NCBI GenBank assembly: GCA_001824325.1
Contig: MHXC01000035.1
Coordinates: 1 to 23,519 of the forward strand
Length of the DNA stretch: 23,519 nucleotides
Direction: 5' to 3'
Source of the DNA: Parcubacteria group bacterium RIFCSPHIGHO2_01_FULL_47_10b
Lineage (GTDB): Bacteria > Patescibacteriota > Minisyncoccia > 2-01-FULL-47-10
Shown: piece by piece, positions 4,809 to 22,843 of the stretch
How positions within the stretch are numbered: position 1 is the stretch's first letter
Layout of the letters: each line of letters opens with the position of its first letter
Notes under the pieces: generated by a model
The model's input: only the letters and a program-made list of their open reading frames with translations
The model's database searches: none
Told to the model about the DNA's origin: nothing
Made by a program: the position numbers and the translations under genes

Positions 4809-6485
4809 GTGACCCGATATATCTTTATTTTTGGAGGAGTGATGTCGGGCATTGGCAAGGGAACCACCACCGCTTCAATCGCTCGGCTCTTGAAAGACCG
4901 AGGGTTTCGGGTTACTGCGATGAAAGCGGATCCCTATATCAACGTCGATGCCGGCACGATGAACCCCATAGAGCATGGGGAAGTTTTTGTGACGCATGAT
5001 GGGCTCGAAACAGATCAAGATCTGGGCAACTACGAGCGATTCCTCGACCAAAATATTTTGGCCTACAATTATATGACCACCGGCTCGGTATACAAAGCCG
5101 TTATTGAGCGTGAAAGAAATCTCGAATACGGCGGGCGTTGTGTCGAAGTGGTTCCACATGTGCCTGAAGAAATAATCCGACGTATCCACGAAGCGGGAAA
5201 GCGGGCCCGCGCTGATTTTGTGCTGATTGAAATTGGCGGCACCGTGGGAGAATACCAAAACATGCTGTTTGTTGAAGCAGCTCGTATGATGCATCTTTCT
5301 GACCCCGAGCGCATTCTATTTATACTGGTCAGTTATTTGCCGATTCCGGACAATATCGGCGAGATGAAGACTAAGCCGACGCAAACCGCGTCGCGCATGC
5401 TCAATACCGCTGGTATTCAAGCTGATTTCATAGTCGCACGGGCAAAACAGACGCTTGACGCTTCGCGACGACATAAGTTATCGGTATTTTGCAACGTTCA
5501 GCCCGACCATATTATTGCTGCTCCTGACCAATCCTCAATATATGAAGTGCCGCAGCTGTTTCGAGCTCAAGGGTTTGATGACAATATTATGCGACATTTC
5601 AAAATGAACCGTGCCCCAAGGAAACATCGGGAATGGGATATCATGGTCAATCGCATGAAAGCCGCTAAGAAACCAGCTACTATAGCGATTGTAGGCAAGT
5701 ATTTTAAGACCGGGGACTACGAATTGGGCGATTCATACATATCAGTTTTGGAAGCAATACGACATGCTTCGTGGGTACAGGGGATTAAGCCTGAAATAGT
5801 CTGGATAAATTCAGAAGAGTACGAAGAAAATCCGAAGGCAGTCAACGAATTATCCCAGTATGACGGGGTTATTATACCGCAAGGGTGGGGAAGTCGCGGT
5901 GCGGAAGGTAAAATTCGAGCGATTCAGTACGTGCGCGAGCACAACATCCCATTTTTGGGGCTTTGTTACGGCATGCAAATGGCTAGCATTGAATTTGCAC
6001 GTCATGTCCTCAAAATACCCATGGCAACCAGCCAAGAAATTGACCAGAAGGCCAAAGACCACGTGATCCACTTTATCCCGGAGCAGTGTAAGCGTATTCA
6101 ACACAAGGATTATGGCGGTTCGTCTCGGCTGGGGGCGTATGCGTGCAAGGTCCGTAGCGGCACCATAAGCCACTCGTTATATGGAAAATCGCTCGTTCAT
6201 GAGCGACACAGACACCGATATGAGTTCAACAACAACTATCGAAAACGATTTGAGAAACACGGTATGGTCTTTGCAGGCATCCATCGGAAGCTAAACCTTG
6301 TCGAAATCATGGAGCTTCCCAGCCATCCGTTCTTTATTGGAGTTCAGTTCCACCCGGAATACATCAGTCGGCCACTTTCGCCGCACCCTTTGTTCGTGGG
6401 CTTTTTGCGGGCTGCTTCGGCGCACCGGAAACAGCGGCCTGCCTTAAAGCCTTCTTTGCAACAGCGGGTTTCGCCGAAGTCATAG
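4809..6485 (+). CDS. pyrG: CTP synthase (glutamine-hydrolysing)
   Basis: 558 aa. The protein makes CTP from UTP, ATP and glutamine. The N-terminal synthetase domain starts MTRYIFIFGGVMSGIGKGTT (P-loop) and continues with DPYINVDAGTMNPIEHGEV and ETDQDLGNYERFL. The C-terminal class I glutamine amidotransferase domain has Cys386 (GLCYGMQ), His515 and Glu517 (FHPEY). The GTG at 4809 matches the family start and lies 15 bp after an in-frame stop; no clear Shine-Dalgarno is present. Two oddities: the usual PGGFG oxyanion-region motif is PQGWG, and about 22 residues after the conserved end (FVGFLRAA) form a basic tail. The last 122 bp overlap rpmA on the opposite strand. Confidence 0.97.
   Translation: MTRYIFIFGGVMSGIGKGTTTASIARLLKDRGFRVTAMKADPYINVDAGTMNPIEHGEVFVTHDGLETDQDLGNYERFLDQNILAYNYMTTGSVYKAVIERERNLEYGGRCVEVVPHVPEEIIRRIHEAGKRARADFVLIEIGGTVGEYQNMLFVEAARMMHLSDPERILFILVSYLPIPDNIGEMKTKPTQTASRMLNTAGIQADFIVARAKQTLDASRRHKLSVFCNVQPDHIIAAPDQSSIYEVPQLFRAQGFDDNIMRHFKMNRAPRKHREWDIMVNRMKAAKKPATIAIVGKYFKTGDYELGDSYISVLEAIRHASWVQGIKPEIVWINSEEYEENPKAVNELSQYDGVIIPQGWGSRGAEGKIRAIQYVREHNIPFLGLCYGMQMASIEFARHVLKIPMATSQEIDQKAKDHVIHFIPEQCKRIQHKDYGGSSRLGAYACKVRSGTISHSLYGKSLVHERHRHRYEFNNNYRKRFEKHGMVFAGIHRKLNLVEIMELPSHPFFIGVQFHPEYISRPLSPHPLFVGFLRAASAHRKQRPALKPSLQQRVSPKS
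5586..5598 (+). repeat. Copy of over-represented word (ATTATGCGACATT)
   Basis: Exact 13-mer inside pyrG, on the + strand. With the three bases before it, it forms a 16-mer that recurs exactly at 7951-7966 on the - strand. Confidence 0.7.
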
Positions 6486-6756
6486 GCATCACATTGACGA
6501 TTCGTACCGTTCGCAAGGCTCCCGTAAATGAAGGTACGCTTTTGGCCTTAAAAGAAACAACGCCTGGTGCGATCGCAAACAGCGTATCATCGGAACCGCG
6601 CTTCACATTTATACCTTCCACAAACCGACTGCCGCGCTGACGAATGATAATACTGCCGATCTGTGCTTTCTGACCAGCGAATAATTTAACACCAAGACGC
6701 TTTGCTATTGAATCGCGTCCTAAACGAGTTGTCGTTTTTCCACCGTGATGTGCCAT
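6364..6756 (-). CDS. rpmA: 50S ribosomal protein bL27 with long basic C-terminal tail
   Basis: 130 aa, against about 85-95 in most bacteria. The N terminus MAHHGGKTTTRLGRDSIAKRLGVK is the bL27 signature that reaches the peptidyl-transferase centre. The core continues through IIIRQRGSRF and GSDDTLFAI to about residue 90. Residues 91-130 (Ala/Lys/Pro-rich, ending GAAKVAD) have no bL27 counterpart and are encoded entirely antisense to the last 122 bp of pyrG. bL27 helps position tRNA and subunits in the 50S ribosome. The usual partner rplU is not adjacent. A good promoter lies 45 bp upstream, and there is no Shine-Dalgarno. The core identification is secure; whether the tail is functional is open. 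Confidence 0.96.
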   Translation of the reverse strand: MAHHGGKTTTRLGRDSIAKRLGVKLFAGQKAQIGSIIIRQRGSRFVEGINVKRGSDDTLFAIAPGVVSFKAKSVPSFTGALRTVRIVNVMPMTSAKPAVAKKALRQAAVSGAPKQPAKSPRTKGAAKVAD

Positions 6757-6800
6757 AGAGAAGAGGGGTCAAAGGAAGTACATTGATGTTCTATTTGTGT

Positions 6801-6829
6801 ATTGTACTAGGTTACATCTACCATGTCAA
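6801..6829 (-). promoter_or_regulatory. Sigma70-type promoter for rpmA
   Basis: On the - strand TTGACA (6829-6824), 17 bp, TACAAT (6806-6801), giving a leader of about 37 nt before rpmA. The -35 box overlaps the ATG of the divergent Ada-like gene, so the two genes may interfere in expression. Confidence 0.75.
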
Positions 6830-7221
6830 CAAAAACCACACACATTCTTATATCTCTTGTCCTCTGGGGAATTGTGCTGTTCTTGGGCGGCTTTGCTCTC
6901 GGCACACGCCAAGTAAAACACCCATTCACATTCGAAGGACTCAACGCCGATCCCGACCACATCCTCGACGAAGCATTCTTCGCTCAAGCAGATGCGTTTT
7001 TTGCTGCGAAAGATAAAGAGCGCTCATTGCGTGAGGAGGCAGGTGAGCGGAGTGGGGGACGCTTCCTAGCTAGTAAAAACGGCTCAACATACTACCTCCC
7101 CGAATGTTCTGGCGCTCGGAGAATAGGTGAAGCAAATAAAGTATGGTTCGATACCGAGCAGCAAGCACGAAATTCCGGCTACAGGCCTGCAAAAAACTGC
7201 GATGGGTTGATGGCAGAGTAA
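6823..7221 (+). CDS. Membrane-anchored protein with Ada-like metal-binding domain
   Basis: 132 aa. One N-terminal transmembrane helix (residues 7-27) is followed by a charged linker (40-75) and a C-terminal module. That module, FLASKNGSTYYLPECSG...IGEANKVWF...GYRPAKNC, resembles the zinc-binding domain of Ada (SKNSxxYHxxxC...NxxxFxxxxxAxxxGYRPCxxC). Two Cys remain (95 and 126). The positions usually held by His and by the first Cys of the final pair differ (Tyr and Ala), so metal binding may be altered. The short N-terminal tail suggests a signal-anchor with the domain outside. There is no methyltransferase part, so it is not a DNA-repair Ada protein. The start has no Shine-Dalgarno; a weak TTGATG/TGTACT pair lies just upstream. 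Confidence 0.7.
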   Translation: MSTKTTHILISLVLWGIVLFLGGFALGTRQVKHPFTFEGLNADPDHILDEAFFAQADAFFAAKDKERSLREEAGERSGGRFLASKNGSTYYLPECSGARRIGEANKVWFDTEQQARNSGYRPAKNCDGLMAE

Positions 7222-7232
7222 TGGGTTTGAAT

Positions 7233-7242
7233 ATTATGCGAC
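7233..7242 (+). repeat. Copy of over-represented word (ATTATGCGAC)
   Basis: Exact 10-mer on the + strand in the gap after the Ada-like gene, extended upstream to AATATTATGCGAC (7230-7242). It is the last + strand copy before the polarity switch. Confidence 0.7.
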
Positions 7243-7277
7243 GTATTGAAAATTTCAATCCCTCGCTGGAATGACTC

Positions 7278-7306
7278 GCGGGTGGAATATGCTCCATTCC
7301 ACCCGC
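7278..7306. terminator. Strong hairpin between convergent genes
   Basis: GCGGGTGGAAT (7278-7288) and ATTCCACCCGC (7296-7306) form an 11-bp perfect stem with a 7-nt loop. It lies between the + strand Ada-like gene and the - strand 75-aa gene. Neither side has a clear U-run, so it is a probable bidirectional or atypical terminator. Confidence 0.5.
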
Positions 7307-7332
7307 ACAACAATCTTTCCTATGACGCTCTC

Positions 7333-7560
7333 TTACTCAACGATTGCCGCATCAAAATCATCAGCGAGCTTGCGAAGAACGCTAGCGATTCTGCCTACAG
7401 TCGCTTCCGCCGATTCAAGGATGTCAAACCCAACAAATAACATATCATCGCCGTCTGGCGATTGATATCGAATTTCTGACCCGTGTTGAAAAAAATACAC
7501 CCCTGAAACTGGGTGCAAGAGGAGCAATGCACTCTCCGAAAAAACCCATTCCTTTTGCAT
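7333..7560 (-). CDS. Hypothetical protein, 75 aa
   Basis: I do not recognise this family. The sequence starts MQKEWVFSESALLLLHPVSG and is followed by a short strand-rich part (VYFFQHGSEIRYQSPDGDDM). A helical C terminus comes last (AEATVGRIASVLRKLADDFD). It has no signal peptide or membrane helix and is mildly acidic. The frame is open to an ATG at 7611, but that codon lies upstream of the promoter's predicted start. ATG 7560 has AAGGG at 7574-7570 with 9-nt spacing and is preferred; ATG 7569 is the alternative. Promoter, RBS and conservative composition make it a likely real gene. Its position beside the dif-like site and convergent hairpin may be incidental. Confidence 0.6.
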   Translation of the reverse strand: MQKEWVFSESALLLLHPVSGVYFFQHGSEIRYQSPDGDDMLFVGFDILESAEATVGRIASVLRKLADDFDAAIVE

Positions 7561-7588
7561 TTTTACCATCCCTTTCTTTCCGCTAGAT

Positions 7589-7708
7589 TTAAATTGAGTA
7601 TAGTGCCTCAATATTCAGTTTGTCAACAAAAATTTTCCCACGATCGGGGAGAGGACTAGTTTTTAGAAGACCTAGCACTGATGTCGCACAATAGTATTTA
7701 TGCGTCAT
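7589..7708 (-). CDS. Possible 39-aa small ORF (doubtful)
   Basis: ATG at 7708 lies 8 nt after a very good Shine-Dalgarno (AAGGAGG, 7723-7717) and opens 39 codons (MTHKYYCATSVLGLLK...) ending in TAA at 7591-7589, 28 nt before the 75-aa gene. Against it: the peptide has no recognisable pattern, the frame covers a TTGACA/TATACT promoter, and its start codon is part of the dif-like palindrome. It could be a leader peptide or chance. Confidence 0.2.
   Translation of the reverse strand: MTHKYYCATSVLGLLKTSPLPDRGKIFVDKLNIEALYSI
7597..7626 (-). promoter_or_regulatory. Sigma70-type promoter for the 75-aa gene
   Basis: On the - strand TTGACA (7626-7621), 18 bp, TATACT (7602-7597). The predicted start near 7590 gives a leader of about 30 nt containing the RBS of the gene at 7560. 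Confidence 0.7.
7681..7708. other. Candidate dif-like (XerCD) site
   Basis: Two 11-bp arms, ATGTCGCACAA (7681-7691) and TTATGCGTCAT (7698-7708), flank a 6-bp centre TAGTAT. The arms are inverted repeats of each other at 9 of 11 positions. The 11-6-11 layout and inner bases CGCAnAA/TTATG resemble known dif sites such as that of E. coli (arm GGTGCGCATAA, arm TTATGTTAAAT). It lies where gene direction and motif direction both reverse. No recombinase gene is in the window, so this is a structural inference. Confidence 0.4.
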
Positions 7709-7950
7709 TCATAGCGCCTCCTTAGGGATTTTCAGATGGTATAGACGTAGTAGTTGCTATGCAATTTTTCCGCTCTAGGACGCAAAAAATCGACCTGTTG
7801 GAGAATTGGGATTTTGTGGAATAATTATTAAAAAATTTCTCTGCGCTTCCCTATTGGATAAAATATTTTTTTTAGAAAGGAAAATGGGGGAAAAAACCTC
7901 TCGGTCGCAAAAATTGTAATTAAGGAAAAAGGGGAGGGTTATTTCTATTT

Positions 7951-7963
7951 AATGTCGCATAAT
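7951..7963 (-). repeat. Copy of over-represented word (ATTATGCGACATT)
   Basis: Exact 13-mer on the - strand in the gene-poor stretch. Extended to 7966 it equals the 16-mer found in pyrG at 5583-5598. It is the first exact - strand copy after the polarity switch. Confidence 0.7.
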
Positions 7964-8015
7964 ATTTATTACATCCATCCTATCCCTATAATGAGGCCGT
8001 ATCATAAATAAAGGA

Positions 8016-8041
8016 GAACCCACCTGCACGCAAGTGGGTTC
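8016..8041 (-). terminator. Terminator of the SPFH-like membrane protein gene
   Basis: GAACCCAC and GTGGGTTC form eight perfect pairs with a 10-nt loop, 35 bp after the stop of the - strand gene. On that strand the hairpin is followed by TCTCCTTTATTTATG, a moderately U-rich tail. Confidence 0.6.
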
Positions 8042-8076
8042 AACTCTTTTCTCGCTTCAGAGTGAACACCCTTTCT

Positions 8077-8922
8077 TCAACTGGTTTCAGCTGATAAAAA
8101 AGGGTTGTGATACAAAGCAATCTCCATTCTGACTGGTATTCCGCCGATGTTGATTGCTCCAATAACTCCGTCCTTTAGTAGCTCGCCTATTGTCAACATC
8201 CGCACATGTTTGCGCCCGAGACATGTCGCCACTTCACGAAGAAGCGCCTTAACACTGAAAGACTGCGGATCGATCGTCCGGACGTTGGCCACTTTAGCAA
8301 TTCCGATATCAAGATGAAATGTGGCTCTCCCAGACACTTTGAATGTTCCGTCTTCGCATAACAGCTCGAGTAATGGCAGGCTAATACGTTCCTCGTGGCT
8401 AAAAAGCCGTCTCTCATAAACATTCCATGGCCACATGCGATACGCTTCACCTGGATAAAGCAATGAACCCTTCCCGAATACAACCAAGCGACCCCCTGGT
8501 ACCACCCATTTAGGAGCCACAATCAACAGGTACGCAAGCAGGCAAATTGTGGCAGTGACTCCTACATTCGAGATGATGTTAGCGCGCATTATAAGGTCTG
8601 GGTCGCCAATTGCTTCCGCAAATGGCAATGACACTGTAGCCACGAGGGCATAAAGAAACGCTGCCATGGCAGCAAGGGTCATTAGAACGTTCAGTGTCTT
8701 TCGCCAAAACGGCTCTGTGCTCACATACGAATCATAGAGTTCCGATCTCGATACATAATACATGACTCCGATTGAAAATGCACAGAGGGCTAAACCACCC
8801 CAAATGGGTGACGGCTGTAAGGCTGAAGGTAGCTCTCCCGTGTAAAACCAACGAAGGCCATATGGCACTGCGGCCATTACGCCAACAAATATCCATTTAA
8901 TGACGCTGGCTCCTAGGTTCAT
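8077..8922 (-). CDS. Four-TM membrane protein with possible SPFH/band-7-like domain
   Basis: 281 aa. Four hydrophobic helices (about 8-25, 39-57, 76-98, 113-136) are followed by a soluble domain from residue 140. That domain reads GRLVVFGKGSLLYPGEAYRMWPW, then ERISLPLLELLCEDGTFKVSGRATFHLDI, then a helical ALLREVATCLGRKHVRML. The order of a pG-type start, a 'new substrate' strand with DG, a beta strand and a helix recalls SPFH/band-7 scaffold proteins. The match is loose and should be treated as tentative. The ATG at 8922 has AAAGGGG about 10 nt upstream. The gene stands alone, with its own weak promoter and a terminator, between the gene-poor stretch and the cell-wall operon. A scaffold role at the membrane is possible, but I cannot assign a function. 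Confidence 0.65.
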   Translation of the reverse strand: MNLGASVIKWIFVGVMAAVPYGLRWFYTGELPSALQPSPIWGGLALCAFSIGVMYYVSRSELYDSYVSTEPFWRKTLNVLMTLAAMAAFLYALVATVSLPFAEAIGDPDLIMRANIISNVGVTATICLLAYLLIVAPKWVVPGGRLVVFGKGSLLYPGEAYRMWPWNVYERRLFSHEERISLPLLELLCEDGTFKVSGRATFHLDIGIAKVANVRTIDPQSFSVKALLREVATCLGRKHVRMLTIGELLKDGVIGAINIGGIPVRMEIALYHNPFLSAETS

Positions 8923-9008
8923 GATCGATTTCCCCTTTCTTTACCTATTTTCAGATTTCAGAGAATTGATTTATAAGGAACTACTCCAATCGTATCTCCG
9001 TTATGACA

Positions 9009-9037
9009 ACGGTACTAAATTTAGATATTACTGTCAA
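9009..9037 (-). promoter_or_regulatory. Possible promoter for the four-TM protein gene
   Basis: On the - strand TTGACA (9037-9032), 17 bp, TACCGT (9014-9009). The -35 is perfect, but the -10 keeps only three consensus bases. The leader would be about 80 nt. Confidence 0.4.
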
Positions 9038-9062
9038 GTCAATTAGCTGTATTGTAACATAG

Positions 9063-9072
9063 GTCGCATAAT
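9063..9072 (-). repeat. Copy of over-represented word (ATTATGCGAC)
   Basis: Exact 10-mer on the - strand in the gap downstream of the EnvC-like gene, extended to AATATTATGCGAC (9075-9063). Confidence 0.7.
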
Positions 9073-9135
9073 ATTATATTTTGTATTTCCCCAGTCCTTC
9101 GAGGGGTGGATGACGGAATTAGAAAAACATATAGA

Positions 9136-10416
9136 TCACAAATAATCCAACGGATTCAGCACCCCCTCGCTATAGTTAAAATAAATCTCCCCATTTTTAT
9201 CAAAGGTAAAAAACTTCGAGTACACGCTAAAATGCAAATGCGATCCTGTTGAATAACCGGTGGAGCCTTCATAGCCAATGGTATCCCCTGCCCTGACCGG
9301 CGCGCCAACTGCAACATGGGTGGGGCGAATCATGTGTGCATATAGCGTCACGAGACCTCCCAAGTGCTGCACCGTCACCCAGTTCCCCCACCCTTTATTG
9401 GTCCCTGATGCAAAAATAATGCCGTCCTGCGCTGCCTTTATACGACTTCCGCGACCCGCTGACATGTCGATGCCGTTATGTATAGATCCACCATATGCGC
9501 CCGATAATGCAAAACTCGTCATTCCGTATCGTTGAGTCAAGACCGGATCGTCTTCAGGCCAGAAAAATATCTTTGTTCCCGGCCGAGGGACTTCGTTTGA
9601 TTCAGAAATCTTGATGTAGTTTTTCTGAATTGAAACCTGTTTCTCCAGCTCTTGAACCGCTTTAAATAGCGCTGCCTCCTCCTTCTGGGCATCAGTTAGT
9701 AATCGCTGGTATTCCCGCTCTTCACCGCGCGTTGTTTGCAACAATACGCCTTGGCGGTATCGTTCCTCTGCAACTGCCTGTTGCTGTACCGATAAATCCG
9801 CTTGCTGCGACTCAAGCTGCGCTCGCTTACCCTCTTGGGTAACGCGTTGCAATACTAATGAATCTCGATACGTCTTTAGTGTATCGAGCGTAATCTTCAT
9901 GCTGTCTTGGACGCTTTGCACATTCGCGCTTTCGCGTAAAAAGTCAGAAAGCGTATCATAGCCGAGTATCACCTCGATCAAAGTCTTCCGGTCAAATTCA
10001 TGCACTCTACTCAATAACGCTGCAAGGTTTTCCTTGTTCTGGTCGATATTTCCCTCGGTTTCATTCGTTTTCAGACGCAGCTGTTCGATCTCCAGTTCCG
10101 TTACCTGAATGTTGTTTTGTGTCTCCTGAATTTGTAGCTCGAGAGTATCGATCTGGCGTGCAATCTGCGCCAGTCGATTCTGCAACGTACTAATTTCACT
10201 TCGTGTTTCTTTGAGTTCTTGGCTGTATTGATTAACCTGTTGGTGGATGCGCTGTGAGGACGCATTCAATTCTTCGATTTTCTTTTGTAACTCCTCCACT
10301 GTTGCTGCGGAAGCGATGTACGAACCGCTAGTCAAGTTAAGCTGAGACAAACCAAGGAACATAAAAACAGCCGTACATAAGCACAGAACAATTGTCCCCG
10401 CACATTGTTTTTTCAT
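9136..10416 (-). CDS. EnvC-like murein hydrolase activator / M23 (LytM) peptidase with coiled coil
   Basis: 426 aa from ATG 10416. A signal peptide (residues 1-37, ending IASA-ATV) is followed by a long coiled coil (about 38-275, rich in Gln/Glu/Leu heptads). The C-terminal LytM domain (about 290-400) has HNGID (His313, Asp317), YAHM (His361) and SHLHF (His393, His395), so the M23 zinc ligands are intact. EnvC itself has lost these residues and only activates amidases. This one may therefore cut peptidoglycan itself, likely at the septum. The frame is open for 81 more codons, but these overlap gltX. GGAGAG just before ATG 10416 and the signal peptide fix the start. It is the last gene of the cell-wall run, 19 bp after gltX. 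Confidence 0.9.
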   Translation of the reverse strand: MKKQCAGTIVLCLCTAVFMFLGLSQLNLTSGSYIASAATVEELQKKIEELNASSQRIHQQVNQYSQELKETRSEISTLQNRLAQIARQIDTLELQIQETQNNIQVTELEIEQLRLKTNETEGNIDQNKENLAALLSRVHEFDRKTLIEVILGYDTLSDFLRESANVQSVQDSMKITLDTLKTYRDSLVLQRVTQEGKRAQLESQQADLSVQQQAVAEERYRQGVLLQTTRGEEREYQRLLTDAQKEEAALFKAVQELEKQVSIQKNYIKISESNEVPRPGTKIFFWPEDDPVLTQRYGMTSFALSGAYGGSIHNGIDMSAGRGSRIKAAQDGIIFASGTNKGWGNWVTVQHLGGLVTLYAHMIRPTHVAVGAPVRAGDTIGYEGSTGYSTGSHLHFSVYSKFFTFDKNGEIYFNYSEGVLNPLDYL

Positions 10417-10435
10417 GGTTCTCTCTCCGTAGCAA

Positions 10436-11947
10436 TTACGTGCGCAGACGCGCAAGCGCCCCTTCAATACGATCACAGCTCTCGTCTTTCCCAAGTACCC
10501 ATACAAGTTCGAATGGGCTCGGGCTCTTTTCTTTATTCGATAATGCAACGCGTAATGGCCAGAGTAACGCACCCCGATCACCCTGTTTATACTCTCCCGC
10601 CTTTTGCAACAACGAGGCCTGGAGCTCAGCGAGCTCTTCATCGCCCCGTAATCCGGCAATCAATGACTTGCTATGCTGTAGGCTCGCAATTGTTTCTTCT
10701 GTTGTCATTATTTTCCAATGCAGCATCGCCGGATCGCACGGCTGCGATTCATCTCGGTAGCTTGCCACTGCGGTTACCAAATCAGACAGTAATTCTGCAC
10801 GCGATTGCTCGACTTGTACGGCACGGCGAAACCGCTCATGCAATGGATGATTCGTCGCTCCTGCTATTTCGGCAACGTGTGGTTGCTGCTCATAATATGG
10901 TTCTAGTCGTTTCAATAAATCATCAAGTGGTAGTGCTTTAATATAGTGACTGTTAAAATACCGCAACTTCGCCATATCAAATACTGAATTGCTCTTTCGC
11001 ACGCGATCCATGCTAAAAACTTTCACCAGTTCATCAAGCGTGAAAAATTCTTGGTCAGCTGCAGAAGCCCTGCCCGTTTCAGAGGATGCCCCCAGATGCC
11101 AGCCAAGCAAAGCTAAATAATTGACCATTGCTTCGGGTAAAAATCCCTGCGTCACGAAATCTTTCATTGATGTTGTTCCTTTTCGCTTGGACAGTTTTGA
11201 TCGATCAGTGGCCAATAATAGTGGTAAGTGCCCAAATCGCGGGGGCGTATGGCCAAGCGCCTTATAGAGGAGCATCTGTTTAGGGGTATTCGAAATATGG
11301 TCTTCGCCGCGGATAACATCAGTAATACCCAGGTCAATATCATCTACCGTTACCACGAAATTATATAGTGGTTCATCAAGCCCCTTGGCGATTGAAAAGT
11401 CCTCAATATCATCGGTATTAAAATGTATCGGTCCGCGCACCATATCATCACATACAACTTCTTCGTGATCTGGTGTCATAAACCGCACTACTCCCCCTTG
11501 CTTTCCCGTTTGAAACTCAAACACGGCATTTTTACGAAATGCGCGCGTATCAGCTGGCCGACGATCGCCTTCAACGTGTGGCTCGTCATAGCTGATATAT
11601 ACTTTCTTCTCGGAAAGAAGCTGTAAAAGCGCCTTGCGGTATAATTCATATCGTTCTGATTGGCGATATTCTTCGTCCCATGTTAATCCTAACCATTTCA
11701 AATGTCGCATAATGTCATTTTCGTATTCCTTCTTTGACCGAACTTTGTCCGTATCTTCAATGCGTAATATAAATATTCCACCCTTTTGACGGGCCAATAA
11801 CCAATTATACAACGCAGCACGCGCAGTGCCTACGTGTAAATACCCCGTTGGCGACGGAGCGATGCGCAGTCGCAAGGTCTCATTTTTTCTTGGCGATTTT
11901 CCAGAAGCGCTTTTCGTTTTTTGTGGTAGTTTGATGCTGGTCTTCAT
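10436..11947 (-). CDS. gltX: Glutamyl-tRNA synthetase
   Basis: 503 aa class I synthetase. LRIAPSPTGYLHVGTARAALYN carries the HIGH-type motif (H38-V-G-T), FILRIEDTD follows, and KLSKRKG (251-257) is the KMSKS loop. The C-terminal anticodon-binding helices end at about 500. The Cys-rich zinc site of some GluRS is missing (VYISYDEPH where CYCT would be). Whether it charges only tRNA-Glu or also tRNA-Gln cannot be told here. The ATG at 11947 overlaps murG by 68 bp and adds a basic 24-residue leader not typical of the family. A TTG at 11875, just after the murG stop, would give the usual N terminus. Neither has a good Shine-Dalgarno. The enzyme is certain; the start is not. Confidence 0.96.
   Translation of the reverse strand: MKTSIKLPQKTKSASGKSPRKNETLRLRIAPSPTGYLHVGTARAALYNWLLARQKGGIFILRIEDTDKVRSKKEYENDIMRHLKWLGLTWDEEYRQSERYELYRKALLQLLSEKKVYISYDEPHVEGDRRPADTRAFRKNAVFEFQTGKQGGVVRFMTPDHEEVVCDDMVRGPIHFNTDDIEDFSIAKGLDEPLYNFVVTVDDIDLGITDVIRGEDHISNTPKQMLLYKALGHTPPRFGHLPLLLATDRSKLSKRKGTTSMKDFVTQGFLPEAMVNYLALLGWHLGASSETGRASAADQEFFTLDELVKVFSMDRVRKSNSVFDMAKLRYFNSHYIKALPLDDLLKRLEPYYEQQPHVAEIAGATNHPLHERFRRAVQVEQSRAELLSDLVTAVASYRDESQPCDPAMLHWKIMTTEETIASLQHSKSLIAGLRGDEELAELQASLLQKAGEYKQGDRGALLWPLRVALSNKEKSPSPFELVWVLGKDESCDRIEGALARLRT
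11701..11713 (-). repeat. Copy of over-represented word (ATTATGCGACATT)
   Basis: Exact 13-mer inside gltX, - strand. It is read in the frame I-M-R-H, the same frame as in pyrG but different from argS, so protein similarity alone does not explain all copies. Confidence 0.7.
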
Positions 11948-13127: not shown

Positions 13128-13139
13128 AGGTGCTAATTG

Positions 13140-15330: not shown

Positions 15331-16395
15331 TCATTGCGGGTTCGACCACTGATAGGCCTTCGAAACCCAGTCGGCCAACGCGATTGCATCAGCAAAGCGA
15401 TTCTTAGAACCAAGAATCACCATGATAAGCGTGTCGTTGTTCGGCGATGCGATCAACGCAGCATAATTCTCCAGCGACTGCGTGGTGAAACCAGTTTTGG
15501 CGGCAATAATTTCGGGACGTTGCAAAATTTTATTCGTTGTCGTTAATACGTGCGCACGATGAGCATCGAGCGAGTACACCGTCGCATCTGGTTTTTGTAA
15601 TATCTCCCAAATAAGCGACCGATTTTGGATTGCCTTGATAAAACGAGCAAGATCCCACGCCGTTGAAACATTACCCTTATCAAGACCACTCGGCTCTACA
15701 AAGGTTGTTTCTATCATGCCGAATTGGGACGCTTTGCGATTCATAAGTACCACAAATTCGTCTATGCCAAGCGACTCGCCAAACGCAATGGCTGCATCAT
15801 TGCTGGATGGTATAAGCAGCGCGTGAAGTAGATCAACGACTGATAGTCGCTCCCCGCTCACCAAATCACCTGCGTCCCCCGTTGTGGCAACTGCAGCGTC
15901 GCTCATAGTTACGTCACTCTCAAGATCAAAAGAATCGAGCACGACTACCGCCGACATCAATTTTGCCAAGCTCGCTATGGGCCAACGCAACGCCGCGTTG
16001 TGCTCGTATAATACTTTCTGGTGTACGGGGTCATATACGAGCGCTGCCTCGGCAGTGATACCTCCGTTTAAATCAAGGATTTCATTGTTTCGCTGGGGAA
16101 ATCCGCTTTCAGTAACTGCGAACACTGGGGTACTTGCATCCGCGATCAATGGCAGTTGCGGGACGTGTGGAGTAATCACGACACCGCTTCTATCTGCAAT
16201 TGCAGTTGTTGCGCTATATTCATATGCCTCGCTCAACGGCGCACTTGTTGCGTTATACACGACATACACAAACGCTGCCAATGCTCCACATAAAAGAATC
16301 CCGGCACCAATGCCGAGGTAGAAAAATGAATGATTTTCGCTCTTGGTACTAGGAGCGCTTTGTGGGCTTTTTTTTGGAGCTACGCTTTTTTTCAT
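15331..16395 (-). CDS. D-alanyl-D-alanine carboxypeptidase (PBP5-like, S11 family)
   Basis: 354 aa. A basic N terminus and one membrane helix (about 23-47) anchor the protein; a periplasmic or outward-facing serine peptidase domain follows. The three penicillin-binding motifs are complete: SLAK (Ser142, Lys145), SSN (Ser197 to Asn199) and KTG (300-302). It would remove the terminal D-Ala from stem peptides and so limit cross-linking. The C-terminal amphipathic anchor of classical PBP5 is absent; anchoring is N-terminal instead. ATG 16395 (MKKSVAPKK) is chosen over the longer frame to 16494, because the extra 33 residues lie inside aspS and spoil the membrane topology. It still overlaps aspS by 47 bp, without a Shine-Dalgarno. 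Confidence 0.93.
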   Translation of the reverse strand: MKKSVAPKKSPQSAPSTKSENHSFFYLGIGAGILLCGALAAFVYVVYNATSAPLSEAYEYSATTAIADRSGVVITPHVPQLPLIADASTPVFAVTESGFPQRNNEILDLNGGITAEAALVYDPVHQKVLYEHNAALRWPIASLAKLMSAVVVLDSFDLESDVTMSDAAVATTGDAGDLVSGERLSVVDLLHALLIPSSNDAAIAFGESLGIDEFVVLMNRKASQFGMIETTFVEPSGLDKGNVSTAWDLARFIKAIQNRSLIWEILQKPDATVYSLDAHRAHVLTTTNKILQRPEIIAAKTGFTTQSLENYAALIASPNNDTLIMVILGSKNRFADAIALADWVSKAYQWSNPQ

Positions 16396-17773
16396 GGACA
16401 ATCGAAAGTTTGAGTTCTTTGAGCTGTTGGGGATCGATTGGTGACGGGGCATCCATAATCGCTGTCTTTCCCGATCCACCGGTAGGTAACGCAATCACTT
16501 CGCGAATACTGGGCTCATTCATCAACATGGCAACAAGGCGATCAAATCCCCACGCAATACCGCCGTGAGGAGGCGGACCATACGTGAATGCCTCGAGCAT
16601 GTGCCCGAATTGCTCCTGGATACGATCCTTTTTGAAACCCATAATTTCGAACACCGTGTGGAGCGTGTGTGGTTCGTGTGCTCGAATACTGCCCCCGCCG
16701 ATTTCAGAACCGTTCAACACGATGTCGTATTGTGTCGTCAAAATATGTTCGATATTCTTTTTTGCTAATAGGTCTTTCTTATGCTCCGGCAGTGGCTCTG
16801 AAAATGGGTTATGCGTGAACGTCCACCCACCCTCGTCAGTTTTTTCAAAAAATGGAAAATTTACGACCCAGCAAAACGCAAGAAGGTTCGGATCGTTTTT
16901 ATCTTTACGAATGTCAGGGCGGTCGGTTTTATACAGCTTCATTGCGTCAGCGTAATCAATACAAGGAAATGGAAGTTCCTGGATATGTTTCTGTGGGAAT
17001 AGCGTCTTCACCAGATGTATCAGTAGGGCCTCGTTGAGTGCCATCACTTCCTCGCGTGTAGTGAAACTCATCTCGAGGTCTAGCTGCGTAAACTCAAGCA
17101 CCCGATCGGCACGAAGGTCCTCATCGCGTAAGCAGCGCGCAAACTGAAAATATCGTTCAAACCCTGCAACCATCAATAGTTGCTTATACTGCTGGGGACT
17201 TTGGGGTAATGCGTAAAATGTCCCTGGCTGCAAACGACTGGGCACCACAAAGTCCCGCGCGCCCTCTGGCGTCGATTTCGTAAGAAGCGGTGTCTCAATT
17301 TCATAAAATCGCTGCGCGCGAAGCGATTCACGTACAATGTCCTGCATCTGTTGGCGGGTTTTGAGATTTCGCTGGATTCGTTCGCGGCGCAAATCAAGAT
17401 AGCGATAGCGCAAACGTAGATCCTCGGTTATTTCATATCCTTCGCTATCAATCGGCAGCGGTAACGGTTGTGCAACTGACAACACCTCAATTGCCTGCGC
17501 CTGCACTTCTATCGACCCCGTGGGCATTGCGGGATTTCGCAACTTTTCCGGGCGCTCGGTAATCTGCCCTGTAAGCGCCACCGTAGACCATTCAGAGAGC
17601 AATGGGTATTGTGCTCGCAACGCCTTAGTTACCACCACCTGCACTATCCCCGTAGCATCGCGCATCGTAAAAAAACTCACACCACCGTGGTCCCGTATTG
17701 AAACAAGCCATCCTTTGAGGAGGACCATCGTTCCGATATGCTGCGGTGTTTCACTAATAAGCGTGCGCTCCAT
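16349..17773 (-). CDS. aspS: Aspartyl-tRNA synthetase, bacterial type without GAD insert
   Basis: 474 aa class IIb synthetase. It has an N-terminal OB-fold (GWLVSIRDHGGVSFFTMRDATG), motif 1 region (FYEIETPLLTKSTPEGARDFVVP), the bacterial flipping loop and motif 2 (FQFARCLRDEDLRADR) and motif 3 (GIAWGFDRLVAML). E. coli AspRS has about 590 aa. The difference is largely the GAD insertion, which should follow YADAMKLYKTDRPDIR but is reduced to a few residues before LAFCWVVNFPFFE. The frame extends to 17872. I choose ATG 17773 because a promoter -10 ends 7 nt upstream and the family N terminus fits; ATG 17779 would add two residues. Basic C-terminal tail (KKRSSKKKPTKRS). Confidence 0.95.
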   Translation of the reverse strand: MERTLISETPQHIGTMVLLKGWLVSIRDHGGVSFFTMRDATGIVQVVVTKALRAQYPLLSEWSTVALTGQITERPEKLRNPAMPTGSIEVQAQAIEVLSVAQPLPLPIDSEGYEITEDLRLRYRYLDLRRERIQRNLKTRQQMQDIVRESLRAQRFYEIETPLLTKSTPEGARDFVVPSRLQPGTFYALPQSPQQYKQLLMVAGFERYFQFARCLRDEDLRADRVLEFTQLDLEMSFTTREEVMALNEALLIHLVKTLFPQKHIQELPFPCIDYADAMKLYKTDRPDIRKDKNDPNLLAFCWVVNFPFFEKTDEGGWTFTHNPFSEPLPEHKKDLLAKKNIEHILTTQYDIVLNGSEIGGGSIRAHEPHTLHTVFEIMGFKKDRIQEQFGHMLEAFTYGPPPHGGIAWGFDRLVAMLMNEPSIREVIALPTGGSGKTAIMDAPSPIDPQQLKELKLSIVHEKKRSSKKKPTKRS

Positions 17774-17780
17774 ACACATC

Positions 17781-17809
17781 TTTATAACGCAAAAAGGGCG
17801 CGGGGGCAA
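17781..17809 (-). promoter_or_regulatory. Internal promoter for aspS
   Basis: On the - strand TTGCCC (17809-17804), 17 bp, TATAAA (17786-17781), then ATG 17773 after seven bases. The geometry predicts a nearly leaderless aspS mRNA inside the long operon, in the 58-bp gap after the kinase gene. Confidence 0.5.
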
Positions 17810-17831
17810 GAGTTGCACCTGCCCTCGCTCC

Positions 17832-19514
17832 CTAATCCTCCCCTCGTATACTATCCGCCTCATCTTCCTCACTTAAATGCTTTTCTCTTGCAGTCATTTT
17901 GTGTTTTACCGGTAGCTCAACGATGAATTGCGACCCTCTGCCCTTGCCCTCTGACTCTGCGACGATAGTGCCTTGGTGGGCATCAACAATGCTCCTCGCG
18001 AAATACAGACCAAGTCCCACACCCTCGTTGTAAAGCGCGCTCACCCGATTGCCGCGGACAAACCGGCGGAATATGGAGCCCATCTCGTCACGGGTCATAC
18101 CTATGCCTGTGTCTCGGATCATCACGCGAATCTTGTTCTTCCCCGCCTTGGTCACAAACGCGCCAACGCTTCCAACTTCCGTGTATTTAACGGAATTATC
18201 GATCAAGTTCAAAAATACTTGGCGCAGTTTCGAAAAATCAGCAGTGATCTTCGGAATCCGCTCGTCGGGCTCCTTGAAGGCAAGTATTAATTTCTTGGTC
18301 TTCGCTTTAGGCGCCAGTTCGCCGACAATTTCACGCACCATTTTCACCACATCCACTTGGATATATTCGTACCCAAGACGTCCTTGTTCAAGCCGTGAAA
18401 TATTCAATAAATCCTCAACAAGATTGATCAAACGGTTTACCGACGTATAGACTGTCTCAAATACCTTTTTTTGCTTTATATTGGCCATCTTCCCGAAATC
18501 TCCTTCAAGCGCCATCGAAGTATATCCTTTAATAATCGAGAGGGGGGTACGCAATTGGTGAGAGGCGATCGAGATAAACTCGTTCTTTATTCGAGCAACG
18601 CGCTTCAGTTTATCGTTAGCTTCTGAAAGTTGGGCAGCAAGTGATTGCATGTTCTCGCGCAGCTGTATTTCCCGTAACGAACCTCGTACTAAGATCACGC
18701 CGAAGATTGCCCCAAATATGAGCACGCTCGACTGGAACAGAAATTCCTGGACACTCGTTGAGATTAAGACTTGCGCACAGAATACTATCAAGATGAAACC
18801 GGTGAAAATTTCATTACCGATCACGCGCATATTTAACAAGTGGTGCTTAAATATTGCATAGGTAATCGAGACAACCATTACCAAGGTAAAGTATGGACCA
18901 AGCCAAATGAGTTGATAATTTCCAATAAGGGGAAATATCAAATTAAACAAGGAGCCAAAAACAAACGCGATAAATGTGCCGACTGTTACATACAACAGTT
19001 GGACCTTTTCAAGTTGGTTTGCCCGCTTAAATTTTCCAATCAAATTGATGAATCCCCAGCTAACTATGGTGATGAAAAAAGCGCTGTAAAAGCTATAGGC
19101 AGGGCCGAGTATAATATTTTTTCCCCACTCTTCGAGCCCGATCGATGCAATATGGAAATCCGTGAACAATAAAAAATAGATAACCAAAAGGAATGGTAGC
19201 GATAGAAATCCGAGTCGTTTCAAATCTAATCGTTTTACTTTTTTGTCCAAAAAGTAAAACGAAAAATCAAAAAAGAAAATCGCAATTAATAGTGCGGCAA
19301 TATAATAAATTCTCGCCCATTCGACTGCTAGAAATAAATCTGGAACGTGTCGAAATGCTGCGAGTCCGAAAGTCCAGATTGATGTAAAAAATACGGCAAA
19401 ACCATAAGCCTTGCTTGCGATATTGTCTTTTGCTTTCAATACAAGGATTCCCGCAATGCCGAGATCGACAAGGCCGACAAGGATGAGAATCAGGTTGATA
19501 AGCTCAATGCGCAT
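17832..19514 (-). CDS. Sensor histidine kinase with multi-TM N-terminal sensor
   Basis: 560 aa. Seven to nine hydrophobic helices (about 5-280) form a 7TM-type sensor region without a large extracytoplasmic loop. A short coiled linker (283-310) leads to the HisKA domain with His319 (SIASHQLRTPLSIIKGY). The HATPase domain has the N box (LNLIDNSVKYT, Asn436 and Asn440), G1 (DTGIGM, 468-473), F (FRRFVRGN) and G2 (GVGLGLYFA, 498-506). All catalytic boxes are intact. It would autophosphorylate on His319, but no response regulator is in the window, so it is an orphan here. The gene starts 6 bp after plsC, with no Shine-Dalgarno, so co-transcription is likely. The signal it senses is unknown; its neighbours suggest membrane or envelope state. 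Confidence 0.94.
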   Translation of the reverse strand: MRIELINLILILVGLVDLGIAGILVLKAKDNIASKAYGFAVFFTSIWTFGLAAFRHVPDLFLAVEWARIYYIAALLIAIFFFDFSFYFLDKKVKRLDLKRLGFLSLPFLLVIYFLLFTDFHIASIGLEEWGKNIILGPAYSFYSAFFITIVSWGFINLIGKFKRANQLEKVQLLYVTVGTFIAFVFGSLFNLIFPLIGNYQLIWLGPYFTLVMVVSITYAIFKHHLLNMRVIGNEIFTGFILIVFCAQVLISTSVQEFLFQSSVLIFGAIFGVILVRGSLREIQLRENMQSLAAQLSEANDKLKRVARIKNEFISIASHQLRTPLSIIKGYTSMALEGDFGKMANIKQKKVFETVYTSVNRLINLVEDLLNISRLEQGRLGYEYIQVDVVKMVREIVGELAPKAKTKKLILAFKEPDERIPKITADFSKLRQVFLNLIDNSVKYTEVGSVGAFVTKAGKNKIRVMIRDTGIGMTRDEMGSIFRRFVRGNRVSALYNEGVGLGLYFARSIVDAHQGTIVAESEGKGRGSQFIVELPVKHKMTAREKHLSEEDEADSIRGED

Positions 19515-19520
19515 GGTTTG

Positions 19521-20180
19521 TTACACGCTATGCCTTAAATCCATCACCCTGGCCATAACTCCTTTTGCAACAATAGCGAGGTCCTTCTTGGTTCTCAATT
19601 TTTTCGATGTAATTTCCCGAATAGTAAAGGGTTTGCCGTATCTTATTGTAACATGTCTGCGTCGGCGTACTACATCTGACAGACTTAATTGAAAAAGACC
19701 CTTGATATACACGGGAACAATAGGACAATCGCACCGGCTTGCCAAATAGGCAACGCCTCGCTTCGGAACCGCTGGTCTTCCTATCGTACTTTTCTTACCT
19801 CGGGGGAAGATTACAATATGGCCTCCTCCATCCAGGATCTTCGCGAATTTTTTTGTTGCATGATTTAGGCCAATCCCCTTGATAATTGGCCGCGCGCCAA
19901 GAATAAAAATGGGGAGCGCTATATGGGGTCGAAAAAATAGTCTTCGCTCCGCGACAAACCAAAACGGATAATATTTCAATCCAAAGGGGTATGCATCAGC
20001 AATGAGAAAAGGATCCACATATGAATCATGGTTACTTGCAATGATATATGGTCCTTTCAGATCCCTGATATATTCCTGTCCAAGAATCTTTAGACGAAAA
20101 AACCATCGAAATATGACTCGGCAAGGCACGAATATGAGGGCTTGCGATATTTTTGCTATTATTCTTGCGATATAAAACAT
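19521..20180 (-). CDS. plsC: PlsC-like 1-acylglycerol-3-phosphate acyltransferase family protein
   Basis: 219 aa. The acyltransferase motif I is present: NHDSYVD, with His51 and Asp56 in H-x4-D spacing. An N-terminal hydrophobic stretch (4-30) fits membrane association. Motif III, normally FPEG, reads FPRGKKS here (Arg127 in place of Glu). Motif IV-like CPIVPVYIKG is present. The family transfers a second acyl chain to lysophosphatidic acid. The Glu-to-Arg change lies in the glycerol-phosphate-binding motif, so the acceptor may differ or activity may be weak. ATG 20180 follows AAGGGG by five bases. The gene lies between the methyltransferase (34 bp) and the kinase (6 bp). Family certain, substrate uncertain. 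Confidence 0.88.
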   Translation of the reverse strand: MFYIARIIAKISQALIFVPCRVIFRWFFRLKILGQEYIRDLKGPYIIASNHDSYVDPFLIADAYPFGLKYYPFWFVAERRLFFRPHIALPIFILGARPIIKGIGLNHATKKFAKILDGGGHIVIFPRGKKSTIGRPAVPKRGVAYLASRCDCPIVPVYIKGLFQLSLSDVVRRRRHVTIRYGKPFTIREITSKKLRTKKDLAIVAKGVMARVMDLRHSV

Positions 20181-20214
20181 ACATCCCCTTGTCTATTATT
20201 ACTGGATTACAGGA

Positions 20215-20946
20215 TTACTGTTTTCTACAACTCAAAATAAGCGCCTGTTTTGCAAAACTTGTCTGCGCTGCAACGCTCTGAAATCCAGTTTTTTTCAGTA
20301 TCTCCACGTGCTTCTCTGCTTCAAAAAATGAATAGTCGCCGCGCTTTCCCTTGTGTGCAATTTCTAACGCATAACGCATAATTGCCGGACCATAGAATAA
20401 GTTTTCAATCTGATCCTTTCGAAGAATGTCGTTGCGTGAAGCCCAAAAGACTTTCCAAAAATTCACGTTCGGCACAGGAGTTGTCCACACGAATCGGCCA
20501 CCTGGTTTCAAAATGCGATACATTTCTGATAGTACGCCCTTGAGCGCGCCCTCCCCTTCTGTGCCTTCGAATCGTTGCACATAGGTAAGCACCAAGTTCG
20601 CAACAATCCCATCAAATGTCTCGCTTGGAAATGGGGTCCGCTCGCTTAAGTCAACGCGCAACAACTCAACAGATTGTTCTTTGTGCATTTTCTCATGCGC
20701 ATGCGTAAGCATAGTCTCATCAAAATCAATACCAACGAGTTTGGCTAGGATGCCGTTTGATCGCTTAATAATAACTTGCATGACGGTTCCTGGCCCGCAT
20801 CCCACATCCAGCCATTGCTCGCCTTTTTTCGGTTTAATCATCCCGCCGATATCGCGGAGCAATTCTTGATACGGCGTTGAACGCTCAATATACGGATAAA
20901 TTTTCCCATATGATGACCAAAATTTTCTTTCGTGTGCTTCGTTCAT
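20215..20946 (-). CDS. Class I SAM-dependent methyltransferase
   Basis: 243 aa. Motif I LDVGCGPGT (46-54) binds S-adenosylmethionine, the acidic residue after strand 2 is in GIDFDETML, motif II is FDGIVANLVLTYV, and the post-motif is LKPGGRFVWTTP. The layout is that of the UbiE/COQ5-like Methyltransf_11 group. The C-terminal part (about 160-215, with FFEAEKHVEIL) is helical and may cover the substrate site. Substrate cannot be told from sequence. Neighbours (plsC-like gene downstream, argS 37 bp upstream) allow a lipid or small-molecule substrate but do not show it. The ATG at 20946 has no clear Shine-Dalgarno. Confidence 0.9.
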   Translation of the reverse strand: MNEAHERKFWSSYGKIYPYIERSTPYQELLRDIGGMIKPKKGEQWLDVGCGPGTVMQVIIKRSNGILAKLVGIDFDETMLTHAHEKMHKEQSVELLRVDLSERTPFPSETFDGIVANLVLTYVQRFEGTEGEGALKGVLSEMYRILKPGGRFVWTTPVPNVNFWKVFWASRNDILRKDQIENLFYGPAIMRYALEIAHKGKRGDYSFFEAEKHVEILKKTGFQSVAAQTSFAKQALILSCRKQ

Positions 20947-20983
20947 AGTATTGCTCGGTTGTTCGACTGATAATTTCGGGTAA

Positions 20984-22843
20984 TCACATTTTTTCCGGCA
21001 CCGGTATGCCGAGAATGGTTAATCCATTATGTAGGACCTGTGCTACTGCTGCAGTTATGGTGACACGAATTTTTTGCTGCTCCCCAGTGTCCGCTTGTAA
21101 TACCCGATTCCGCGCATAAAAACCATTAAACTGTTGTGCAACATCATACAAAAATGAACAGAGTAGATGGGGTGTGTGTTTTTCAGCAGCTTCTGCCACT
21201 ATTTCCGGGGATCGGTATACAATTCGCAGCACTGATAATTCATCTGGGTTAAGGGTAGGGGTTGCTTGCTGGAAATATGATGTATCGAAACCAGTTCCTC
21301 GTTCGTCTACTTGCCTACCAATGCTTCGGGCCCGCGCATACGTATATTGTAAGTACGGCCCTGAATTCCCTTCGAAACTAATCGATTGATTGAAATCAAA
21401 CACAATATCGCTCCCGATGTTCGATTTCAGTAACGCATATTTTATCGCGCCGATAGTTATGTGTTCCGCCACCGCAGGCCGCTCATCTACTGAAAGCTTA
21501 AACTGCTCGCCCGATGACATTACACCAAGTACGCGCTCTTTCACATCGGCCAACAGCGATTCCGCCGCTATCACCGTTCCGGTTCGACTACTCATTTTTC
21601 CTTCGGGAAGTCGAATAAATCCGTGCGACAAATGAGACGTTTTCTCACCAAGCTCGGGGTTAATAGCTCGCAATGCGCTTAGTACAACCCGAAAGTAGTC
21701 TTTTTGTTCGTTGCCGGTAATAATCAGCGACTTGTCATAGGCAAAATCGCGTTGCTTTAATAATGGAAGCCCGAGGTCTTTTGCCTCATACGTCGGCAGT
21801 CCGATACTATTAATAAAGACGCGTTTATGTAATCCGCTGCCGGATGCATCAAACACAATTGCTCCCCTATCGCCGACCTCGAATACGCCTTTCGCCAAGA
21901 ACTGCTTCACAACTACATACCCCTCCTGCGCGCTCTCGCTCTCAAAATAATAGTGCGCGAATGTAGTACCAAGGCGTTGATATATAGTTTCAAAATATGC
22001 TAAACTCCATTCGCGTCCTTTCAGCCATAATTGATACACATCATCAGGTTTCCATGGACTTTCGGGAGTTCTGGGATTACTCGCTTTCTTTAATGTCGCA
22101 TAATCTATCTTCATTTCCTTTCCACTCTCTCTTAAAAACCGCTCACTTACTTCATATATAAGGCCGTTGAGAGACTCAATTTCGGTCTTTGCGGCTTCAT
22201 CTGTCTCATATGCCTCTGCGCCTGCAGCATAAACTTTGCCCATCCATGTCGCGCGCTCGGGCAAAGATAATTTTTCAACAGACGCAAGCGACCGACCCGT
22301 ATTTTTCTCATCCTGTAGCATTCCCCAAATCGCTTTGGCCACATGCATACCAACATCTCCCTGGTAACAGACACGCGCGACTCGCCACCCCTGCGACTCA
22401 TATAATCGAGACAGACACTCCCCTACTGTATTGCTATACAGATGTCCGAGATGAAACACTTTGAATGGATTCGGGTCGGTGAATTCAATGACAATAAGTG
22501 GTGCCTTTGGATCGGTTGTGGCGACATTGCTCGTCTGGTACGCCTGATGTATCTCGGATATTCCTCGGACAAGCGCAATTACTGATAGATGGATATTGAT
22601 AAAGCCTGGAGGAACAACCTCGACTCGTTCGACAAGCGGACTTTTCTCTAACTTTTGCACAATCTCCTGTACGACTTCCATGGGTGGCCGCTTCTGTTTT
22701 TTGCCCAGTGCCAAGGCAATGGCGGACGCATAATCGCCATGTGTCGGATCTTTCGGGTGCTCAATCGTCACGATCACAGATTCGTCACCAGTGATCGACG
22801 TCACGCCGCGCAAAAACCATGCATGTATCTCCTCTCGAATCAT
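20984..22843 (-). CDS. argS: Arginyl-tRNA synthetase
   Basis: 619 aa class I synthetase. An N-terminal Add-1 domain (1-110, with HGDYASAIALALGK) precedes the catalytic domain. The HIGH motif is in FTDPNPFKVFHLGHLYSNTVGE (HLGH at 131-134), a variant of the more common NPTGPLHVGH. The KMSKS loop is GKMSSRTG. The DALR anticodon domain has YLQYTYARARS. The ATG at 22843 follows serS by 26 bp without a Shine-Dalgarno. The length is slightly above the usual 560-600 because of insertions in the catalytic part (for example 180-270). Part of the minus-strand run, with serS upstream and the methyltransferase downstream. Confidence 0.96.
   Translation of the reverse strand: MIREEIHAWFLRGVTSITGDESVIVTIEHPKDPTHGDYASAIALALGKKQKRPPMEVVQEIVQKLEKSPLVERVEVVPPGFINIHLSVIALVRGISEIHQAYQTSNVATTDPKAPLIVIEFTDPNPFKVFHLGHLYSNTVGECLSRLYESQGWRVARVCYQGDVGMHVAKAIWGMLQDEKNTGRSLASVEKLSLPERATWMGKVYAAGAEAYETDEAAKTEIESLNGLIYEVSERFLRESGKEMKIDYATLKKASNPRTPESPWKPDDVYQLWLKGREWSLAYFETIYQRLGTTFAHYYFESESAQEGYVVVKQFLAKGVFEVGDRGAIVFDASGSGLHKRVFINSIGLPTYEAKDLGLPLLKQRDFAYDKSLIITGNEQKDYFRVVLSALRAINPELGEKTSHLSHGFIRLPEGKMSSRTGTVIAAESLLADVKERVLGVMSSGEQFKLSVDERPAVAEHITIGAIKYALLKSNIGSDIVFDFNQSISFEGNSGPYLQYTYARARSIGRQVDERGTGFDTSYFQQATPTLNPDELSVLRIVYRSPEIVAEAAEKHTPHLLCSFLYDVAQQFNGFYARNRVLQADTGEQQKIRVTITAAVAQVLHNGLTILGIPVPEKM
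22092..22104 (-). repeat. Copy of over-represented word (ATTATGCGACATT)
   Basis: Exact 13-mer inside argS, - strand, read in frame D-Y-A-T-L. This differs from the I-M-R-H frame of the pyrG and gltX copies, so the DNA word rather than a shared peptide is conserved. Confidence 0.7.

Follow-up and report, generated by a model that had tools for sequence, protein, structure and literature searches.

The window analysed here is a stretch of 23,519 nucleotides, positions 1 to 23,519 on the forward strand of contig C35 (MHXC01000035.1), from the draft genome of Parcubacteria group bacterium RIFCSPHIGHO2_01_FULL_47_10b (GCA_001824325.1; class Minisyncoccia). It holds six copies of the 10-mer ATTATGCGAC, hereafter the word, whose orientation flips once, and a predicted dif site, where chromosome dimers would be resolved, stands at the flip. 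On the best reading of our results, the word is a new polar one that is directed at the terminus and made from a half-site of the Xer recombinase. It is enriched in the genome, is identical with the dif arms of class members, lies with a 35:0 polarity relative to words like the FtsK-orienting polar sequences (KOPS) and forms a cluster at dif. We tentatively propose, as a plausible account that we would not yet call probable, that an Xer half-site word has been spread over the chromosome as a strand-polar, dif-pointing word, densest beside dif.

Six words and a predicted dif site

The exact copies on the + strand lie at 5586..5595, in pyrG and sense to it, and at 7233..7242, in an intergenic gap about 440 bp left of dif. 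Those on the - strand lie at 7954..7963 (between genes, some 250 bp to the right of dif, and part of the full 11-mer TTATGCGACAT), 9063..9072 (intergenic), 11704..11713 (in gltX, sense) and 22095..22104 (in argS, sense, in a frame that differs from those of the pyrG and gltX copies). They are the six listed by the preliminary description of this DNA, and the longer extensions and the shared 16-mer AATATTATGCGACATT that it reported are present in the sequence. With up to one mismatch allowed, the window has nine matches against a shuffle mean of 2.3, and none of 100 shuffles reached nine. As that description had it, the left copies (two) are all + and the right copies (four) are all -, and therefore all six point at dif and converge on it.

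The putative dif site occupies 7681..7708 (without a strand) and consists of the arm ATGTCGCACAA at 7681-7691, the spacer TAGTAT at 7692-7697 and the arm TTATGCGTCAT at 7698-7708. We assign it to dif from its sequence, because it has the 28-bp layout of 11-6-11 and occurs once per genome. A near copy of the word had been listed at 7683-7692; it is real and is the left arm of this palindrome. What escaped the preliminary description is the nature of the word, a dif half-site, and the fact that the change of orientation marks dif.

In relatives of the class, TTATGCGACRT occurs as inverted pairs spaced 17 bp. We searched the palindrome ATGTCGCATAA-N6-TTATGCGACAT with at most three mismatches in 383 class genomes, our own included, and 77 of them gave one forward and one reverse match per genome. 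The two matches were one and the same place wherever the places were listed, and the reversed control palindrome had zero matches in the same 383 genomes. Our genome has the palindrome at one place only, with two mismatches from the searched form. A stricter form of it was found across the GTDB species in 34 stretches, 24 of which are in records named as Patescibacteria groups (19 of these being Moran-, Magasanik-, Berkel- or Doudnabacteria), while the remaining ones are three archaeal stretches and others in other or unplaced bacteria.

Two side observations concern the distribution of the palindrome. The archaeal records L060, L082 and L085 (Poseidonia, Poseidoniales and Euryarchaeota UBA256) match the dif pattern and have TGTGAG as a common spacer. 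In the Moranbacteria metagenome-assembled genome DOLZORAL124_35_17, the dif palindrome is on two contigs (L063 and L076), which may mean two chromosomes or a mixed bin.

The predicted dif coincides with a polarity switch. The KOPS-like words described below run 5:3 on its left, which is weak evidence, and 7:32 on its right. The GC skew on the + strand is weak left of about 6 kb, and each 1.5-kb step rightward of 6 kb is negative.

Genome-wide enrichment and the form of the word

The genome comprises 1,012,319 bases in 66 contigs and is 92.8% complete. The word occurs in it 35 times (16 + and 19 -), or about once per 29 kb, and the reversed word twice, so the enrichment that had been predicted from the window holds genome-wide. 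Word statistics were taken from a sample of 293,770 bases, which consists of up to 20 kb from each of the first 20 contigs, unselected otherwise, and of the window with its own six copies. In this sample the word has 16 counts against the 0.88 expected under a third-order Markov model, a comparison that the preliminary description had proposed, and the highest z-score among all 10-mers with at least six counts.

Sub-words shorter than ATTATGCGAC fast lose the signal and single-base variants stay near expectation, so recognition of the word looks sharp. Its inner part TTATGCGAC has 39 copies on the strand given by KOPS and two further copies on the opposite strand. The profile built from the 39 reads A(26)T(21)A(35)-TTATGCGAC-R(35)T(27), and A-TTATGCGACRT is the fuller form of the word.

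Two other words are over-represented in the same sample. The palindrome AGACCGGTCT exceeds ATTATGCGAC in ratio, with eight two-strand counts (four places) against 0.15 expected. The other, TTATCCACA, presumably a DnaA-box-like word, has 18 counts against 2.3 expected.

Polarity and the KOPS of the class

We learned KOPS-like words from the sequence flanking dif in 20 further genomes of the class (L168-L187, 387 kb). The counts toward and away from dif were 70:4 for AGGGGAG, 196:26 for AGGGGA, 172:24 for GGGGAG and 119:15 for GGGGGA, and GGGNAGGG itself had 43:6. AGGGGAG-like words are likely the KOPS of this Patescibacteria class and resemble the classical KOPS. The word differs from them in sequence, being unrelated to GGGNAGGG and to AGGGGAG. 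A coupling between the word and KOPS is absent as well: 6 of the 35 copies have a KOPS within 60 bp on the same strand against 17% at random, and 5 of the 35 have one on the opposite strand against 8%. As an isolated observation, GGGGAGGG at 7931-7938 (+) matches the E. coli KOPS GGGNAGGG, is 15 bp from the word at 7954 and points away from dif.

The contigs of our genome were oriented by AGGGGA, GGGGAG and GGGGGA, some of them being covered only in part. By this orientation, which was picked after the GC-skew outcomes were known, all 35 words are on the terminus-pointing strand, including those that are exceptions by GC skew. Since one orientation is already favoured by coding, the polarity was compared with a null that includes the coding constraint; this null expects 22.7 of 35, and the P value is 3.6e-8. 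The antisense copies (4/4) and the intergenic copies (7/7) agree with the KOPS polarity too.

An empirical null was made from words with at least 20 copies, those bearing GGGG or GGGA being excluded, and it carries the same gene-direction bias as the test of the word. Only one of 10,313 8-mers reaches 95% polarity, the mean being 60%, and three of 442 9-mers do so, all of them pieces of ATTATGCGAC. Counted over 414,502 bases, namely the segments with an absolute skew of at least 0.04 and the two sides of dif, the copies are 23:3 in favour of the leading strand.

Coding was modelled by codons. The model expects 0.85 sense and 0.27 antisense, so that 76% would be sense, and the observed 23:4 is an unremarkable gene-sense bias. 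Against the same model, the word is enriched about 13- to 80-fold in every one of the five frames that bear copies, and about 15-fold for antisense overall. Genome-wide the copies are found in each of the three sense frames, in antisense and in intergenic gaps, in line with the earlier argument that no shared peptide is behind them.

Correspondence with Xer half-sites and clustering at dif

The form TTATGCGAC[AG]T is identical to the full dif arm of class members, in which both GACAT and GACGT are found. On this match, the word appears to be an Xer half-site sequence, namely one dif arm with the adjoining spacer base. The left arm of our own dif has TA on its spacer side, the same as in the word. 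In the genome G029, which belongs to another family, the 3′ end of the word (AC) tracks the right arm of its own dif.

One tyrosine recombinase, of the Xer type and with 342 amino acids, was detected in the 92.8% complete genome. It is closest to the XerC and XerD models, with scores below their cut-offs. Among the 120 best relatives listed for it, the few that carry an organism name are Parcubacteria/Paceibacterota groups, Patescibacteria or bacteria without a further name.

Within 5 kb of dif there are five words where 0.35 would be expected (P ~3e-5), although this figure is inflated because a reader who had noticed the cluster chose the window. The independent part of the clustering is that the dense window turns out to hold dif. 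In G029 the contig that bears dif carries 5 of the 14 words, compared with an expectation of 0.93 (P = 0.003, calculated from a rounded genome size).

The word and half-dif satellites in relatives

Our genome is the sole member of its order in the genome comparisons. Among 55 genomes, our own included, only G029 stands out with 14 words against no controls, and the next has four. The sister of G029, G154, has eight copies against one control among the nine genomes of their order, and none of 379 phylum genomes beyond these three is above seven copies. Amplification of the word is rare. The conservation in relatives that the preliminary description had expected is weak for the amplified word, with only G029 and G154 clearing the background in the genomes covered.

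The dif of G029 is at C46:10220-10247, three mismatches from the palindrome. All five words on this contig are on the - strand, lie right of dif and point at it, and the left side is without words. Of these, two lie between genes and three in open frames as sense copies, so chance is possible on that contig alone. The exact words in other relatives are aligned and not aligned at 7:1 in G154, 4:0 in G028, 3:0 in G051, 2:2 in G048 and 1:1 in G045; these numbers are small and mixed. Separately, a G029 sample (L143-L159) has a family of words centred on GGTCGCGACC, with 24 two-strand counts (12 places) against 0.12, which is perhaps a dispersed repeat.

Half-dif satellites, defined as copies of a locus' own arm with at most one mismatch, were sought at 79 distinct dif loci in other genomes and are present within 1 kb of dif at 22 of them. 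Controls with permuted arms (n = 200) gave a mean of 3.7 loci and a maximum of 11. For these 79 loci, identical ones were merged and those of our genome and G029 were excluded; sister species remain, so the loci are not independent. Several satellites follow the arm of their own genome, such as TTTTACGACAT in family f40. The dif flanks of these other genomes have half-sites without a universal orientation, and an orientation rule of half-sites is not general. It may be a general feature of these bacteria to carry half-sites close to dif, one that has been extended chromosome-wide in this lineage.

Degenerate full dif sites were considered as the source of the words and rejected, as no second arm was seen upstream of 30 words or of 26 satellites inspected. 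Single words without a partner arm should not recombine. As to arrangement, nine Moran- or Magasanik-type loci (L061, L063, L069-L071, L076, L078, L080 and L175) have one or two satellites at about 280-860 bp from dif on one common side. Three satellites of the Moran- or Magasanik-type read TCTACA-TTGTGCGACAT-AAA.

Elsewhere in the window, a nucleotidyltransferase gene at 2931-3308 (-) resembles MntA antitoxins with 50.3 bits, below the cut-off of 60, and a DUF3800 protein at 3381-4115 adjoins it.

Discussion

The word could serve as a second chromosome-wide polarity code beside KOPS, in which leading-strand Xer half-sites are one-way FtsK gates toward dif, although we regard this function as doubtful. 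In such a scheme, the one Xer recombinase found would bind the half-sites of the word. FtsK heading to dif would meet the bound Xer from the spacer side and strip it, but FtsK moving the wrong way would meet the outer side of Xer, as at the dif arms, and stop. The words would thus be one-way gates, and together with ordinary KOPS, at which FtsK loads, they would direct FtsK and Xer to dif. KOPS load FtsK toward dif, and in E. coli the wrongly oriented ones do not stop FtsK, according to an excerpt of PMC2680272. FtsK clears many obstacles and differs in its behaviour at XerCD-dif, XerD being activated there by the gamma domain (excerpts of PMC5357621 and PMC5052618).

A number of observations weigh against reading the word as a dif-pointing Xer half-site. 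As to polarity, GC skew alone puts 27 of the 35 copies on the G-rich strand, and a gene-corrected skew agrees for 20 of 28, with seven copies having no estimate. Hence the orientation by replichore that the preliminary description had suggested is clear by the KOPS-like words and less clean by GC skew. Furthermore, 31 of the 35 copies follow the majority coding strand of their contig, and the KOPS-like words may share the gene-direction bias. The replichores are inferred ones in a genome of 66 contigs, and the KOPS margins are thin at several places: 5:8 on C12, 11:13 on C16, 3:5 on C19, 6:3 on C60 and the 5:3 left of dif.

The sequence match and the relatives also offer points on this side. 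Each arm of our own dif is one base off TTATGCGACAT of the word. The single-base variants (30 of them) are 27:10 leading to lagging and near expectation, and the word tolerates little mismatch, whereas dif arms vary. TTATGCGACRT has 27 copies in our genome and at most four in each of the 382 other class genomes, many of which have good dif arms. The genome-wide polarity in G029 is 9:5 aligned to not, and 4:5 off the dif contig. The satellites over the 22 loci point toward dif in 11 cases and away in 15, and at the nine Moran- or Magasanik-type loci they point away, opposite to what gates would do.

As the main rival, the word would be a lineage-specific second KOPS that FtsK gamma or some other portion of the motor recognises, and its similarity to the dif arm would be secondary or a coincidence; we consider this possible but not likely. 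A word that is polar, on the leading strand, dense at dif, sharply exact and present about once per 29 kb would fit such a role, and FtsK gamma domains are found in 50 of the 55 genomes, G029 included. In our own genome, whose FtsK sequence was covered in part, a search for this domain had no match, which does not argue for its absence. KOPS are also known to vary among lineages (excerpts of PMC3325230 and PMC5357621). However, AGGGGAG-type KOPS are still polar in our genome, for example 51:8 on C18, which argues against a replacement. The word is also unlike AGGGGAG, shows no KOPS adjacency and has 11 positions in common with the dif arm.

Another leading-strand polar process, by a Chi-like signal or a terminus-organising protein, is an unlikely source of the word, the dif-arm resemblance being then by chance. 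Chi-like sites are leading-strand biased as well. Polarity and terminus density would fit any of the architecture-imparting sequences (AIMS), as these are described in part of PMC5993296. But the dif-arm identity, the covariation in G029 and the half-dif satellites elsewhere would all have to be coincidences.

A DNA uptake sequence for natural competence agrees with the exact word being over-represented genome-wide in both genes and gaps, but we consider it very improbable. Uptake words are frequent, with neither replication-strand polarity nor terminus clustering expected of them, whereas this one is 35:0 polar by replication strand, clusters at the terminus and has a density of only about one per 29 kb. 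An RNA-level element was rejected as well, since the window has no match in Rfam and antisense copies exist. Scarcely credible is a by-product of coding, in the form of a favoured I-M-R codon string on mostly one-way genes: 12 of the 23 sense copies are in frame 0, the sense bias is near the prediction of the codon model and the majority coding strand is mostly followed, but the excess over that model in five frames and in antisense rules out coding as the cause of the enrichment, and the seven intergenic copies together with the antisense ones match the KOPS polarity 11/11. We lowered the weight of the gene-sense bias because it is near the expectation of that model.

The half-site word resembles several known systems in part. 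Without proposing a single function, the preliminary description had pointed to precedents among uptake sequences, KOPS, Chi and terminus sites; of these, the word is KOPS-like in its behaviour and is not the KOPS of the class. AIMS were defined as leading-strand-biased words with a bias and a density rising toward the terminus (Hendrickson and Lawrence, excerpt of PMC5993296). The word is over-represented on leading strands like them (35:0 when oriented by KOPS), but it has 10-12 bases compared with 8 in AIMS, a near-absolute polarity and the sequence of a recombinase half-site. For a possible rise in density of the AIMS type, the data cover the surroundings of dif, in a window picked for its cluster.

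Like the octamers of KOPS and the SpoIIIE recognition sequences (SRS), as far as excerpts of PMC2680272 and PMC5357621 describe them, the word points at dif on both replichores and flips there. Unlike KOPS, it differs from the class KOPS AGGGGAG and matches an Xer arm instead. With dif and the half-sites of XerCD, XerS, XerH and XerA it shares the same 11-bp arm, and an 11-6-11 dif is in the window, but each word is a lone arm that lacks a partner, and there are 35 of them against one site. The archaeal short polarized sequences (ASPS) are likewise polar words other than canonical KOPS that converge on dif (excerpt of PMC5357621), but they have four bases (GTTG/GTTC) and no resemblance to the dif arm.

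In the open-licence literature, no title or start of an abstract among the matches listed was on dispersed polar half-dif words. To our knowledge, none of the guide words KOPS, SRS, AIMS and ASPS doubles as an arm of its target recombination site.

In summary, the dif palindrome and the AGGGGAG-type KOPS give a practical description of dif and KOPS for this class. If the word is indeed a polar, terminus-pointing word made from an Xer half-site, it would tie Xer directly to the guidance of the motor, and this could be tested in vitro using two proteins in purified form. In draft genomes of Patescibacteria it would also mark the terminus of replication.

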